Below are positions 1,157-46,411 of a stretch of DNA of 46,411 nt, piece by piece. The stretch's first letter is position 1, and every line of letters begins with the position of its first letter. This DNA comes from a virus. The translations under genes were made by a program, and so were the position numbers. The notes under the pieces are model-generated. The model had not been told where the DNA came from and did no database searches. It saw only the letters and a program-made list of their open reading frames with translations. Location: positions 1 through 46,411 of IMG/VR virus record IMGVR_UViG_3300042326_001103, one strand, 5' to 3'.

Positions 1157-3370
1157 ATGGAACTCCACGAACTCGCGGACGCACTCGCTGTCCGCGTTGA
1201 AGAACTCTGCACGCAACTCCTCCCCGCTGGCCGCCGCATCGGCACCCAGTGGATCGTCGGCAACGTCTTCGGCGACGCCGGCGACTCTCTGTACGTCGAA
1301 CTCCAAGGCCCCAAGCAGGGCCTCTGGTACGACCACGCCGCTGGTGAGGGTGGCGATCTCCTGGCCCTCGTCGCCCAGAACCAGACGCTACCCATCGGCC
1401 GGGCAGCCGCCTGGGCTCGCCAATTCCTCGGTATCCGCGACGATTACCAGCCCACCCAGCGCTCGTTCGATCCCCTCAAGCACGGCCACCGCAACGACGC
1501 CTCCCAGCCGTACCGCTACGGCACCGCCGCCTGGCCCTACCACAACTCGGACGGCACGATCCACGCCTACGTCGTCCGGTTCGACCTCCCGGACGGTTCC
1601 AAGGACGTCCGCCCCCTCCGGCTCCTCCCGCCCGAAAACCAACTCCCCGACCCACTCAACCCACGCCACTGGCGCTGGAAGGGCTGGCCCAACCCCGACC
1701 CGGTCCCTCTCTTCAACCTCCACGTCCTGGCCCGCCGCCCGAACGACCCCGTCCTCATCGTAGAGGGCGAGAAAACCGCTGTCGCCGCTTCCAAGCTCTT
1801 CCCGTCCCACGTCGTCATCACCTGGCAGGGCGGCTCCAAGCGGGTCGGCCGTGCGGTCCTCGATCCCCTGCTGACACGCGCCACCCCGATCATCCTGTGG
1901 CCCGACCACGACAAACCCGGCCGGGACGCCATGGTCTACCTGAAAGCCCGCCTGCCAGCCGCCCGCGTCGTCACCCTCCCGTCCTCCCTCCCCGACGGCT
2001 GGGACCTCGCTGACCCCATCCCCCCTGACGTTTCCATCCAGGGCCTCCTCGACGCCGCTGGCGACCTGCCACGCCCGGTTCCCGCTCAACCGGCGCCCGC
2101 ATCTCAAAACCCGCTCGACGACCTCCATTACGACCCGAACTCCGGCCAGTGGTGGACCCGAAACGCCTGGGGCGATTACGCCCAGATCAACGGCGAGCGT
2201 GTCCGTACCCTCTTCACCGAGTCTGGCGTCTCCCCCACCAAGGACCAGACCAGCGCCTCCGACGTGGACCGCGAACTCCTCCGCCGCACCCGGGACACCC
2301 GGATCCGCTATGCCGGCTCCGTCGCTGGTCACCGCGCCGGTCTCTACGGCAACATCCTGGTCACCGAATCCGTCGCTCCCCTCCCCGCTGTCCCCGGCGA
2401 CTGCGCCCGCATCCAGACCTACCTCCACAACCTCCTCGACCAGAACGACGACCAGTACTGGCGCCTCATCTTCTGGCTGGCGCTCCGTCGCCGCGCTGTC
2501 CTCACCAACACCTGGCGAGCTTCGCAAGCCCTCGCCCTCGTCGGCCCCGCCGCGTGCGGCAAGTCCTTCGTGCAGGCTGCCGTCATCACCCGGCTCCTCG
2601 GCGGCCGCATCGCCAAGCCCTACCGCTACATGTCCGGCGCCACCGAGTTCAACGGCGACCTCTTCGCCTCCGAACACCTCTGCATCTCCGACGAGGCACC
2701 CGGCCGCGATATCCACTCCCGGCGCTCCCTGGGCTCGCACATCAAATCCATGCTGTTCGACATCGACCAGTCCTGCCACCCCAAGAACCGCCAAGCCGTC
2801 ACCCTCCGCCCCATCTGGGCCATGTCCATCTCCCTCAACGACGAGCCCGAGAACCTCCAGGTCCTCCCGCCTCTCGACCCATCCCTAATGGACAAACTTA
2901 TCATCCTGCGCTGCGTCCGCCATCAACTCCCCTGGCCCGGCCCCGAAATCGAAGTCCTCCGCAACATCATCGACACCGAACTGCCAGCCTTCGCCCACTA
3001 CCTCGACGGCCTTACCGTGCCTGACCACCTCATCGAACCCCGCTGCGGCCTCAAGGCCTACCAGCACCCGGCCATCCTCGAAGAACTCATGCAGCTGTCG
3101 CCCGAGCACCAACTCATCGGCCTCATCGACACCGTGATCTTCGAGAACGAATTCCTCACCTGGCGAGGCACCGCCTCGGACCTGGAAACCGCTTTACGTG
3201 ACTCCAAGTATTCCCGCGAGGCCGACCGCCTCTTCCGCTTCAATACCGCGTGCGGCGTCTACCTCGCACGGCTCCATGAGCAGGATCCGGAGCGCATCAA
3301 GAAAACCAAGACCAACGGGAAGGTGAAGTGGTCCATCACGCCGCCTCAAAAATCCGCAGCCTTGGATTGA
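1157..3370 (+). CDS. Primase-helicase (TOPRIM primase fused to superfamily 3-like helicase)
   Basis: A 737-residue two-part replication protein. The N-terminal 100 residues (GLWYDHAAGEGGDLLALVAQ) look like the region that precedes TOPRIM domains in phage primases. The TOPRIM core is VEGEKT at residues 202-207 and DHDKPG at 250-255, the acidic metal-binding motifs of DnaG-type primases. The C-terminal helicase part has a Walker A loop, GPAACGKS, at 463-470 and an acidic SDEAPGRD stretch, resembling the P4/D5-like ATPases (DUF5906 type) fused to primases. It should open DNA and synthesise primers for a host polymerase, since no phage polymerase is visible. No classical zinc-finger cysteines are seen at the N terminus. 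The stop codon is embedded in the TTGACG box of the downstream promoter candidate. Confidence 0.9.
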   Translation: MELHELADALAVRVEELCTQLLPAGRRIGTQWIVGNVFGDAGDSLYVELQGPKQGLWYDHAAGEGGDLLALVAQNQTLPIGRAAAWARQFLGIRDDYQPTQRSFDPLKHGHRNDASQPYRYGTAAWPYHNSDGTIHAYVVRFDLPDGSKDVRPLRLLPPENQLPDPLNPRHWRWKGWPNPDPVPLFNLHVLARRPNDPVLIVEGEKTAVAASKLFPSHVVITWQGGSKRVGRAVLDPLLTRATPIILWPDHDKPGRDAMVYLKARLPAARVVTLPSSLPDGWDLADPIPPDVSIQGLLDAAGDLPRPVPAQPAPASQNPLDDLHYDPNSGQWWTRNAWGDYAQINGERVRTLFTESGVSPTKDQTSASDVDRELLRRTRDTRIRYAGSVAGHRAGLYGNILVTESVAPLPAVPGDCARIQTYLHNLLDQNDDQYWRLIFWLALRRRAVLTNTWRASQALALVGPAACGKSFVQAAVITRLLGGRIAKPYRYMSGATEFNGDLFASEHLCISDEAPGRDIHSRRSLGSHIKSMLFDIDQSCHPKNRQAVTLRPIWAMSISLNDEPENLQVLPPLDPSLMDKLIILRCVRHQLPWPGPEIEVLRNIIDTELPAFAHYLDGLTVPDHLIEPRCGLKAYQHPAILEELMQLSPEHQLIGLIDTVIFENEFLTWRGTASDLETALRDSKYSREADRLFRFNTACGVYLARLHEQDPERIKKTKTNGKVKWSITPPQKSAALD

Positions 3371-15420: not shown

Positions 15421-15458
15421 GCGTCAGTCACCGTATGGCAACTGACGCACAACGTCAA
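15421..15458 (-). promoter_or_regulatory. recT promoter candidate and inverted repeat
   Basis: On the minus strand TTGACG (15458-15453), a 17-base spacer, TACGGT (15435-15430), then 9 bases (GACTGACGC) to the recT ATG. Embedded in it is an inverted repeat, GCGTCAGT-N12-ACTGACGC (plus 15421-15448), that brackets the -10 and touches the ATG. The arms are also the TGACGC box seen at 3367-3403. A repressor binding the arms would cover the -10. Confidence 0.5.
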
Positions 15459-43329: not shown

Positions 43330-44934
43330 TTAGATCGCGAACTCCAACGTGACGTTGGTGCAGGGCACAACCTCGGTGGTGGTGCCGAGCGCGCTGCTCG
43401 CCAGCTGGATCAGGTTGCCAGACACGACGCTCCAGGTGCCGGACGCGCTGCCGAACTCGGCATCCCAGACCGTCTGCAACGCGGCGACCAACGCGGCCGG
43501 AGTGGCCTCGCTGATGCCAGCATTGGTGACGATGTTGTCGTCGCACATGATGCCGGTGGTGCCGATGACGTAGTTGCCAGCGTCGTTCGGAACGGCCGTG
43601 AACTGAACGGTGACTCCGCAGACAGGATCCGCCGAGTTGTAATCCTGCGCCGGATTGCCGGGGTCGGCCTCGCAAACCGGGATGATTTCGATGCATCCAC
43701 GATCAACCTTGTGGAAGATCGCCTCAAGCCACTCCGGATGCTCAGGCTTCACGGCCAACTGGAAGTCGGCGATGAACTTGCCCTTGTTTCCACGGCTGTT
43801 GTCGATCGGCTTGCCAGCACAGTCCGCGCCCAAGTCGTTGGTCGCGAACTTCCAACGCCCACCGTAATCCCGAACCATGAACGGCATATTCGGGTTCACG
43901 GCCTCGGGGCGGAACGGCATCACGCGCAGAGCGCGAGGATTGTTGATGTAGCTGATCTGGTACTGGGCCTTGTCGTAGTCTTCGTTGAAGACAGACTTGA
44001 TGCCCTCGGTGGCAGCCACATTCTTGTACGGCAACACTAGCGTGTAGTTGCCCGGGGTCGCCGTCGCGTTGAAGCGCAGCGGGAACTGGAGCACCTTCAC
44101 CATGAAGTCGCCGACGTAACCCATGAAGCCGTACTTGTAGAACTCCTTGGCGGCCGGGGCGAAAACGCCGAAGCGCCAAGCATCGTACAAGGTAGCGTTG
44201 GTCTTCGACAGATACCGGAAGGTATCCTTGTCGGTGTGCAGCTGGAGGGAATCATATCCGTCCTTGCCGGCCTGGATGGCGCCCAGGAAATACTGCCGAG
44301 TCACGCGGGACTGGAGGATCTCCGGGGTCAAGCGACCTAGCGAAGCGGCGGTGATCGCAGCAGCGGCGTTGTCGGTCACACGCAGCGTGGTGTAGCCGGC
44401 GCCAACCCAAGAGAAGTTGATCGGAGGCAGACCAGCAGCGCACGCGAAGGCGTTACCTCCCAGCAGCGAACTGGAAAGCTCAGCGGCCTTGCGCTGGAGG
44501 TAGTACGTGGTGATCCAGTTCGTAGCGGGGCGAAGAACGTCGTCGATGATCTGACGGAAGTGCTCCTTGGCCTTCGTCTTCGTCATAATCTGGTCGAAGC
44601 ACAGGATGTCAGAACCCCATGACTGCTTCTCCAGCGAGTATTCGTTGCGGCTCCAGCCCCAACCGATCTTGTTCTCGGTAGGGTCGCACGGCTGACCGGT
44701 ACAGGACGCACCGGTCGGATTCTCCCAGGCGCCAGTCACGTTCGGGAACACGCTGTTGAAGCGGTCGAAACGATGGGTGGTGCCGGAATACGCGTCGAAC
44801 GATCCGGTGTTGTAGTATCCGATCATCCCGTCAAACGGGCGGATATCCTTGAGGACTTCCTTGTCGTACACAGGTTCCTGCGAGACGAGGAAGGAAGCAA
44901 ACTGCTTACAGCTGATTACATTTCCACTGGCCAT
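43330..44934 (-). CDS. Major capsid protein candidate (534 aa)
   Basis: The gene has a clear Shine-Dalgarno (AGGAG). The 534-residue product has the traits of a HK97-type capsid subunit in this size class: an N-terminal helical segment (VISCKQFASFLVSQEPVYDK), long spine-like helices (KEHFRQIIDDVLRPATNWIT), a globular YKYGFMGYVGDFMVKVLQFP and a beta-rich C terminus (VVSGNLIQLASSALGTTT). Cysteine-rich insertions are present (CTGQPCDP, CEADPGN). It lies on the opposite strand and away from portal and scaffold, an unusual arrangement. Major capsid is the best reading because it is the only large, soluble, well-expressed-looking structural gene left, but a family match could not be checked. Confidence 0.72.
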   Translation of the reverse strand: MASGNVISCKQFASFLVSQEPVYDKEVLKDIRPFDGMIGYYNTGSFDAYSGTTHRFDRFNSVFPNVTGAWENPTGASCTGQPCDPTENKIGWGWSRNEYSLEKQSWGSDILCFDQIMTKTKAKEHFRQIIDDVLRPATNWITTYYLQRKAAELSSSLLGGNAFACAAGLPPINFSWVGAGYTTLRVTDNAAAAITAASLGRLTPEILQSRVTRQYFLGAIQAGKDGYDSLQLHTDKDTFRYLSKTNATLYDAWRFGVFAPAAKEFYKYGFMGYVGDFMVKVLQFPLRFNATATPGNYTLVLPYKNVAATEGIKSVFNEDYDKAQYQISYINNPRALRVMPFRPEAVNPNMPFMVRDYGGRWKFATNDLGADCAGKPIDNSRGNKGKFIADFQLAVKPEHPEWLEAIFHKVDRGCIEIIPVCEADPGNPAQDYNSADPVCGVTVQFTAVPNDAGNYVIGTTGIMCDDNIVTNAGISEATPAALVAALQTVWDAEFGSASGTWSVVSGNLIQLASSALGTTTEVVPCTNVTLEFAI

Positions 44935-45144
44935 ATTGGCTCTCCTGCCTCGGGGTTTACTTCACCTACCCCTCCGAGACAACGAGGCAGATTGCAGGTC
45001 TGTTAAGACCATCAATCCAACCTCGGTGGCGAGTCCGAGCCGTGGAACCGGCGAACGCCCTTCGGCGCTCTTTGCCAACTGGAATAACGCGCCCAGTTCG
45101 CGCCCGGTTGACGAAACCGGGCTATGCGTCGTGCGGGAAGCGTG
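44935..45144. other. Intergenic leader upstream of the capsid gene
   Basis: About 210 bases between the RHH gene and the capsid gene. Besides the hairpin at 45102-45122, no convincing gene is present; a minus-strand 73-codon frame here has Arg/Pro/Ser composition typical of a non-coding reading. The region should hold the capsid promoter, but no strong -35/-10 pair was found. Confidence 0.55.
45102..45122. terminator. Perfect 8-bp hairpin after the RHH gene
   Basis: GCCCGGTT-GACGA-AACCGGGC, 23 bases downstream (minus direction) of the RHH stop at 45145. No T-run follows on that strand. It may end or weaken the RHH transcript before the capsid gene, or stabilise it. Confidence 0.5.
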
Positions 45145-45339
45145 CTAGCGGCTCTTCCGAGTGTCAACGCGTTTCTTGGAGGACTCGATCGCACGATCAT
45201 GCTCGCACCGCAGGACATGGTCCTCGATCGCAATGATCAGCACCGCAGTTTTCGTCCGGCGGGCTCGAATCGCCTCATCTTCCAGCATCTGGGCCACCTC
45301 AATCGGCAACCGGTAGCTCACTCGAATCGTGTTACTCAT
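45145..45339 (-). CDS. Ribbon-helix-helix regulator (64 aa)
   Basis: The start MSNTIRVSYRLPIEVAQMLE (ATG 45339) is preferred. The first strand TIRVSYRLP is followed by two helices (EVAQMLEDEAIRARRTKT, AVLIIAIEDHVLRCEHDR): the Arc/MetJ fold of small DNA-binding dimers. Its basic C terminus (SSKKRVDTRKSR) may add contact to DNA. It faces a palindrome (CTTGACacGTCAAG) shared with the helicase promoter, a likely operator for self- and helicase repression. Confidence 0.75.
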   Translation of the reverse strand: MSNTIRVSYRLPIEVAQMLEDEAIRARRTKTAVLIIAIEDHVLRCEHDRAIESSKKRVDTRKSR

Positions 45340-45345
45340 GCCGGC

Positions 45346-45391
45346 GAGTGTGCAGCTTGTGCTTGACACGTCAAGCCGCAGAACGCAGCCT
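45346..45391. promoter_or_regulatory. Divergent promoter with overlapping -35 palindrome
   Basis: CTTGACACGTCAAG (45362-45375) contains TTGACA for the plus direction (17-base spacer, CAGCCT at 45386-45391, 10 bases to the helicase ATG 45402) and TTGACG for the minus direction (17-base spacer, ACACTC at 45351-45346, 6 bases to the RHH ATG). The two -35 boxes share the palindrome. Both -10 boxes are weak. Confidence 0.5.
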
Positions 45392-45401
45392 GCGGCTCAC
45401 G

Positions 45402-46411
45402 ATGGAACTGCGCCCCTACCAAAACCAGCTTGCTCAGGATATCCGCTCTGCGTTCGGGTCTGGCGCCAAACGGCCGCTGGCGGTAAGCCCCACTGGATCC
45501 GGCAAGACGGTCCTCTTCAGTTACATCACCTCGCAGGTCCTGCAACGCGGATCCCGGGTGATTATCGTGGCGCATCGGAAGGAAATCCTTGAGCAGATCG
45601 GCGCCACGCTGAAGCGCGTCAACGTGCCGCACGGATTCATCCAGTCCGGAAAATTCATGGCTCAACAATCTGCCATGGTCGCCTCGATCCAGACGCTCGC
45701 CCGCCGGTTCGACAAAGTCCCCGAACCCGACCTGGTCATCATCGACGAGGCGCATCACGCGGTCTCGAAGTCCTACATCGAGATGTTCGCGACCTGGCCG
45801 AAAGCTAAGTTCATCGGCGTCACGGCGACCCCAGAGCGTCTCGACGGCAAAGGTCTCGGTGCCGTGTTCGATCGCATGGTCATGGGGCCTACCGTGGGCT
45901 GGCTCATCGACAACGGATTCCTTGCCCGGCCGGTCTACTACGCTCCCCGGGAGGCTGTGGATCTCTCAAGCGTCTCGAAGCTCGCCGGCGATTACAATCT
46001 CGGTGAGGCGGCCGAGGTAATCGACACCCCAAAAATAACCGGCGACGCGGTAACGCACTACCGGCGCTTTTGCCCAAACCAGCGGGCGGTGGCCTTCTGC
46101 ATCTCCGTCGCTCACTCGCAGCACGTTGCGGCACAGTTTGAAGCCGCTGGCGTCCCGGCAGCGTCGATCGACGGCCAGCTGGATCAGGAAACCCGCAAGA
46201 AGCGCGTGGAAGACCTGACAGCCGGCCGGATCCTGGTTCTGACCAGCTGCGAGTTGATCTCCGAGGGGTTCGATCTCCCCACGGTCAACGCGGCTATTCT
46301 TCTTCGGCCCACTCATTCGTTGTCCATGCACTTGCAGCAGCTGGGTCGTGCTCTCAGACCCTACCCCGGCAAGACTCACGCTGTCATCCTCGACCACGTA
46401 GGAAACTGCCT
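45402..46411 (+). CDS. Superfamily 2 DNA/RNA helicase, N-terminal part (continues at 1-563)
   Basis: Runs off the right end; the same frame resumes at base 3 of the window. Starts MELRPYQNQLAQDIRSAFGS, with Walker A SPTGSGKT at residues 29-36, DEAH at 115-118, VTATPERLDG (motif III-like) shortly after, and CISVAHSQHVAAQF starting the second RecA-like lobe. The complete protein is 460 residues. It is transcribed divergently from the RHH regulator, with a promoter-like box very near the ATG. It resembles small phage-encoded DEAD/DEAH helicases associated with nucleases. Confidence 0.9.
   Translation, partial: MELRPYQNQLAQDIRSAFGSGAKRPLAVSPTGSGKTVLFSYITSQVLQRGSRVIIVAHRKEILEQIGATLKRVNVPHGFIQSGKFMAQQSAMVASIQTLARRFDKVPEPDLVIIDEAHHAVSKSYIEMFATWPKAKFIGVTATPERLDGKGLGAVFDRMVMGPTVGWLIDNGFLARPVYYAPREAVDLSSVSKLAGDYNLGEAAEVIDTPKITGDAVTHYRRFCPNQRAVAFCISVAHSQHVAAQFEAAGVPAASIDGQLDQETRKKRVEDLTAGRILVLTSCELISEGFDLPTVNAAILLRPTHSLSMHLQQLGRALRPYPGKTHAVILDHVGNC
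46222..46411. repeat. Terminal redundancy, right copy
   Basis: The 190 bases repeat those at the start of the window with a single difference at 46349 (T instead of C), silent in the helicase frame. The mismatch may be strain variation in the sampled population or a read error. Confidence 0.95.

Follow-up and report, generated by a model that had tools for sequence, protein, structure and literature searches.

The immI region of phage P22 has a layout with the ribbon-helix-helix (RHH) repressors Arc and Mnt, and an RHH domain is also found in MatP, a larger chromosome organiser with many chromosomal sites that is not known to be a promoter repressor. The available part of PMC2629481 describes immI as holding mnt, arc and the antisense RNA sar and as controlling ant, and includes in its reference list a title on the autogenous control exerted by Arc. 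The locus considered here lies in the virus record IMGVR_UViG_3300042326_001103, the whole 46,411 nt of which were analysed and are referred to below as the window. It resembles immI in that a small phage-encoded RHH-type protein is the proposed repressor; the complex of Arc with DNA ranked fourth among the structure matches to this regulator, and a sequence search of the PDB with the regulator profile returned neither Arc nor Mnt. Unlike in P22, there is one RHH gene, one palindrome holding the −35 boxes of both proposed promoters, and a helicase gene as the neighbour.

Phage PY54 likewise has divergent regulators, cI and cro, with a single Cro operator, and the mRNA mapped for each repressor is leaderless, starting at the AUG, which is a precedent for divergent leaderless regulator mRNAs (PMC4488713, in the part available). 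However, the same excerpts place these proteins in the Cro/CI type rather than the RHH class, put the cro promoter up to 40 bp from the operator, and indicate that Cro reportedly does not repress itself. AmrZ is an RHH DNA-binding protein that represses its own promoter, as is proposed here, although its half-sites are GGC (available text of PMC3325190). The MatP site matS, GTGACRNYGTCAC (PMC6907758, in the portion available), is a palindrome with TGAC...GTCA half-sites like that of the present locus, from which it differs in having a 3-bp centre, and the MatP-matS complex (4d8j) ranked eighth in the structure search. CopG and CopASO, the latter an antitoxin, are further RHH DNA-binding proteins among the structure matches. 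The switch proposed below is known in kind, from Arc and Mnt of P22 and from phage repressor regions generally, and this instance of it unusually compact and strongly conserved.

The putative RHH-type regulator gene, an ORF of 64 aa (45145-45339, minus strand), and the gene for a DEAD/ResIII-type helicase (45402-46411, plus strand) are divergent, with 62 bases separating the regulator ATG from that of the helicase at 45402. The latter gene is cut by the end of the window and, by its reading frame, continues at 3-563. Because the two ends of the window overlap by 190 bp (1-190 against 46222-46411, a repeat of helicase gene sequence in which 189/190 positions are identical), the helicase cut at the right end resumes at the left; the record, though classed as linear, is probably a nearly closed circle or a permuted genome. 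Primase- and nuclease-like genes are found at the left end. No match among phages was obtained for the DNA of 44400-46411 or for the regulator, and patterns for close regulator relatives matched 56 stretches in a bacterial genome collection, none of which was confirmed. The top-ranked helicase relatives in isolates belong to Synechococcus phages, with 47-48% identity among the best 20 of 2739 records, whereas the primase and terminase-like proteins point away from such phages. These hints conflict, and searching via DNA, regulator and helicase relatives found no host.

Between the two genes lies a palindrome (45361-45376), the proposed RHH operator, in which perfect 7-nt arms, GCTTGAC at 45361-45367 and GTCAAGC at 45370-45376, surround the centre AC; CTTGACACGTCAAG is found at 45362-45375. 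As the initial annotation had it, this one palindrome contains −35 boxes for both of the divergent genes: TTGACA on the plus strand (45363-45368), facing the helicase, and TTGACG on the minus strand (45374-45369), facing the regulator, abut exactly, with a gap of zero. The sequence TTGACNNGTCAA is present as a single copy in the window and occurred in 2 of 20,000 Markov-random 62-mers with the same dinucleotide make-up. Any 7+2+7 dyad was found in 83 of the 20,000 random 62-mers and five times in the window, dyads whose arms are 7 nt long and 0-8 apart are present in 98 of the 4635 62-bp stretches of the window, and the window has three copies of CTTGACNNGTCAAG with at most two mismatches, against 1.88 expected. 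As a bare dyad the palindrome is only moderately unusual; its strength lies in its conservation.

Relatives were collected by searching viral contigs with the helicase and the regulator separately, the regulator being searched again with alignments. This yielded 34 core loci by protein similarity alone and L031 by its helicase, whilst L139 was found through a scan for the palindrome itself, so that its own palindrome is not independent evidence. The exact CTTGACACGTCAAG lies upstream of the regulator in 36 of the 36 loci returned for this protein, at 21-22 nt from the ATG in the 34 core loci; for L031 and L139, sequence inspection gives distances of 22 and 23 nt, respectively. These sites are not mere copies of one sequence, because there are 22 distinct upstream stretches among the regulator loci (one incomplete) and because the helicase has just 3 invariant columns among 116 fourfold ones across the rows used for counting conserved columns, namely 19 distinct rows out of 31 aligned. 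In the same 19 distinct sequences the 16 contiguous columns of TGCTTGACACGTCAAG are invariant, as is each of the two −35 boxes (19/19), and the symmetric G-C/G-C flanks beyond the hexamers are also kept, the last C in 18/19. Two far more distant lineages were also compared: in L031 (the same as L130) and L139, whose regulators are 34% and 42% identical to that of the window and whose helicases share 44/132 and 48/131 fourfold sites with it, the palindrome is identical and the remainder of the gap has diverged. A search of four records of the lineage (those of L139, L130, L003 and L028) gave one copy of CTTGACNNGTCAAG in each at up to one mismatch.

Conservation in related phages, which the initial annotation had proposed as a check, is accordingly complete among regulator loci, so that the idea withstands the refuting condition named there, loss of the palindrome with both genes retained. 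The conservation does not extend to helicase relatives lacking a regulator match: none of 47 such loci has TTGACACGTCAA within 400 bp, even with one mismatch allowed, as all differ from it at two positions or more. This comparison covered the 48 non-core helicase loci with enough upstream sequence (L044, which lacks it, was omitted), of which L031 was the sole positive. In a midpoint-rooted tree of 16 chosen helicases, the RHH-bearing lineages group together (support 98/97), with L032 as their sister. Neither a regulator match nor the palindrome was found in L032, which retains the helicase, the leader RNA described below (55.5 bits) and the 534-aa gene behind it (57% identity). On these comparisons, the presence of the palindrome in this lineage follows that of the regulator gene rather than that of the helicase.

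The assignment of the regulator to the RHH class in the initial annotation agrees with structure comparison, within limits. The AlphaFold model (pLDDT 82) has helices at 13-25 and 30-54 following an N-terminal stretch, with no strand in the monomer; CopASO, Arc, ORF56, MatP, CopG and AmrZ are among the leading Foldseek matches, the best E being 0.26 and none of the 89 matches reaching 0.001. The predicted fold is RHH-like by the pattern of these matches, not by their significance. Matches to Pfam are weak as well: the window protein matched TraY alone, at 17.9 bits against a cut-off of 21.3, and among nine members TraY was matched by six, RHH_1 by two and CopG_antitoxin by one, with a best E of 3.2e-5. 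Residues R6, S8 and R10 are among the 11 that are invariant in 9/9 aligned regulators, down to 34% identity. In the available part of PMC3325190, AmrZ reads bases with Lys18, Val20 and Arg22, alternating ribbon residues at i, i+2 and i+4, and by analogy R6, S8 and R10 are presumed to be the base-reading positions of the ribbon. Invariant presumed reading residues combined with an invariant site should be the pattern expected of a cognate pair.

A scan for sigma-70 promoters gave one site in 6.4 kb (2.3 expected) and none at the palindrome, and for this reason conservation was used to place the −10 boxes. On the helicase side the proposed −10, CAGCCT (45386-45391, plus strand), is invariant in 19/19, lies 10 nt before the ATG and follows the −35 box after the 17-base spacer that the initial annotation had given to both promoters. 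That spacing does not carry over to the regulator, for which 17 bases would give ACACTC; the conserved hexamer here is CACACT (45347-45352, minus strand), 7 nt before the ATG, which fits a 16-base spacer and is kept in 18/19, with CACAAT in L028 and TACACT in L031. Both proposed hexamers are far from TATAAT. Operator and promoters overlap as sequence features, the −35 boxes falling inside the palindrome and conserved hexamers following at 17 and 16 bases. The distances of 7 and 10 nt from −10 box to ATG suggest that both mRNAs are leaderless or nearly so, the regulator message possibly being fully leaderless. Shine-Dalgarno pairing is weak or absent at the two divergent starts (+0.3 and −1.7 kcal/mol), a situation common among 23 chosen starts and so not distinctive in this genome.

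Further conserved bases are found between the helicase −10 box and the ATG, where CGGCTCA (45393-45399, plus strand) is invariant in 19/19. The longer stretch CAGCCTNCGGCTCA (45386-45399) is invariant in the same number of distinct core sequences and includes a small dyad, AGCC-TNC-GGCT, of which the centre alone is variable; it is absent from L031 and L139, and is perhaps a second site. An inverted repeat at 45374-45381/45390-45397 was considered as a hairpin and dropped, as its full 8-bp arms are lost in relatives and AGCC-TNC-GGCT alone is kept. Pairs of TTGACG and C/T-A-N-N-N-T placed 17 bases apart are also seen close before other starts, at 3367 before 3404 and at 15458 before 15420, a hint that a nearly leaderless promoter type may be common in this phage. 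If the switch is as proposed below, the grammar it suggests for this unisolated phage group is TTGACR, 16-17 bases and a hexamer of the A-N-N-N-T type close before the start. A looser pattern (TTGACR, 15-18 bases, C/T/A-A-NNN-T/C) was rejected as standalone evidence, as it fits 10 of the 34 TTGACR sites in the window, several of them not before a recognised start.

In L020, L022, L024 and L029, 208-214 bp of extra DNA lie between the element and the helicase, starting exactly at the ATG behind CACG; the inserts of L020 and L022, when translated, give ORFs of 67 and 69 aa. A further 57 bp are added in L015, L016 and L037, which in L015 can be read from that same ATG as an N-terminal extension in frame. 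The exception is L018, which has lost the ATG behind the element and whose helicase begins 9 nt further on; L030, with a partial helicase match, was excluded from this comparison of the gap between element and helicase. For the most part, then, the element behaves as one unit, remaining beside the regulator and preceding whatever begins at that ATG.

Copies of the palindrome elsewhere were considered as signs of a wide regulon, an idea that was rejected: 32 of the 46 stretches found in viral contigs belong to this lineage, and the remainder are near chance with one exception. These other 14 stretches fall into seven groups by flanking sequence (judged by eye), against five stretches for one permuted 16-mer. 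The exception is the otherwise unrelated phage G001 (IMGVR_UViG_3300025108_000091; loci L146, L151 and L291-L293), with six exact copies of TTGACACGTCAA, five of them placed as −35 boxes, with hexamers starting with TA at 17 bases, between co-directional ORFs. No RHH_1 match was found in G001, nor any DNA-binding domain in the 10 ORFs scanned, the DNA polymerase aside. A motif derived from G001 matched 37 stretches, and a search of the open-access subset of the literature for the 12-mer, in both readings, found no mention of it. The arrangement in G001 is a sign that the full palindrome may act as an operator independently of divergent −35 boxes, which supports reading it as such; equally, another protein may read the palindrome, and this makes the RHH protein less compelling as its necessary reader.

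We consider it on balance probable that the locus is an autorepressing RHH switch, in which one palindrome is both the operator and the two −35 elements and its occupation closes the regulator's own promoter together with that of the replication genes. The data on which this rests are the element itself, its conservation, the hexamers at −10 spacing, the RHH-like model and the co-occurrence of site and regulator. From these we infer binding by the regulator, repression, the start sites and the timing, as follows. The 62 bp would constitute a two-way promoter, the 16-bp palindrome serving as operator of the divergent RHH protein and as both −35 elements. While little regulator is present, host RNA polymerase would start in either direction, and the abutting −35 boxes should prevent simultaneous binding. 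As the 64-aa regulator accumulates, a dimer, or a pair of dimers, would settle on the palindrome and cover both boxes, switching off the regulator gene and the helicase/replication operon, such that autorepression is coupled to shut-off of the replication genes. Both mRNAs would probably begin at, or a few bases from, the start codon, and the next leftward gene, with its own probable palindrome-free promoter and structured leader RNA, may escape the switch. If true, this would be a clean instance of a two-way phage switch of very small size, for which the data already contain natural controls: deeply diverged proteins whose site is identical, a sister lineage that has neither, and genes inserted at the start codon. 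A more extended version is possible, and is put forward tentatively: a self-contained bidirectional cassette of about 62 bp, whose RHH operator is both −35 elements and whose leaderless transcripts never fire together and are closed in one event, would be passed on as a unit, with new first genes inserted at its ATG, beside a structured leader RNA that matches no Rfam family and whose own promoter releases the gene behind it from the switch.

Among the points against the switch are the distance of the −10 hexamers from consensus and the fact that two back-to-back −35 boxes alone would make most of the palindrome. The second of these is the substance of an alternative that we regard as unlikely, in which the palindrome is a by-product of abutting divergent −35 boxes, any switching would be mutual exclusion between RNA polymerases, and the RHH protein binds elsewhere. 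Head-to-head TTGACA and TTGACG are indeed sufficient to spell TTGACACGTCAA, and both proposed −10 boxes are conserved, in its favour; however, the symmetric bases outside the hexamers are conserved too, unlike at the second promoter described below, the regulator match and the palindrome are missing together from L032, and the full palindrome in G001 stands at co-directional promoters, where a second −35 box is unneeded.

The same phage is the source of a different and rather improbable alternative, that the palindrome is read by a protein of the host or of another phage, the RHH gene simply lying next to it: six exact sites, five of them as −35 boxes, exist there alongside no RHH_1 match. Within the present lineage, however, the palindrome accompanies the regulator and not the helicase, and the single copy of CTTGACNNGTCAAG (at most one mismatch) per record in L139, L130, L003 and L028 also speaks against such a reader. 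It is very improbable that the site is instead part of a replication origin or a relaxosome-like one, where a TraY-like RHH protein would act on DNA together with the helicase and would be no repressor. The weak TraY matches in 6/9 members (best E 3.2e-5), the adjoining helicase and the primase- and nuclease-like genes at the left end of the window fit such an origin, whereas the conserved hexamers at −10 spacing to start codons on both sides do not, and neither does the entry of extra ORFs between element and helicase whilst the element stays beside the regulator; RHH_1 and CopG match some members as well, and TraY may be just the nearest RHH profile.

The initial annotation had further extended control by the site to a capsid block on the regulator side, and this part is not supported. 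The next leftward gene (43330-44934, minus strand), which encodes 534 aa and had been called capsid, is unconfirmed as such: its structure model is unusable (pLDDT 39), and sequence searches gave nothing useful, with no PHROG or Pfam match, no match among phages and no useful match to PDB sequences. In addition, a probable second promoter, TTGACA N17 CACGCT (45139-45167, minus strand), occupies the 3' end of the regulator gene, in front of the leader RNA, and has no palindrome. When 13 chosen core loci were examined together with L139, L130 and L032, each core locus, along with L139 and L130, had TTGACR and, after 17 bases, a hexamer whose second position is A; in L032 a plain TTGACG-N16-TACAAC precedes the leader RNA. 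The box is in the regulator's frame (GTTGAC, Val-Asp) in 13/15 rows, so coding may contribute to its retention; the exceptions are L272 and L139, where it lies out of frame, with its TGA as the stop codon, and yet is kept. The third bases of both the Val and the Asp codon are invariant in 18 aligned rows, and G precedes TTGAC in 15/15. The next leftward gene thus probably has its own promoter, free of the palindrome.

Analysis of the palindrome led in this way to a strongly covarying, structured leader RNA of about 200 nt in front of the 534-aa gene (44935-45132, minus strand; match to RNA model R1 at 44987-45128). In 16 chosen rows, from which the structure itself was derived, 18 of the 44 pairs have changed on both sides and 97.6% of cells are paired (0/500 shuffles; slid controls at most 50.5%), and the window copy has a folding z of −3.5. 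Rfam gave no match to the leader at the gathering threshold, with two weak sub-threshold matches elsewhere in the stretch, and the RNA is possibly more novel than the palindrome. The model, built from the window, L139 and L031, was searched against 66 chosen sources, four of which scored below an E of 0.01: these three and L032, which is outside the model. The next were L049 (E 0.15) and L292 (E 0.19). The leader comprises several hairpins with compensatory changes together with a long, fully invariant helix, and its position is shared by L130, L139, L032 and the core loci.
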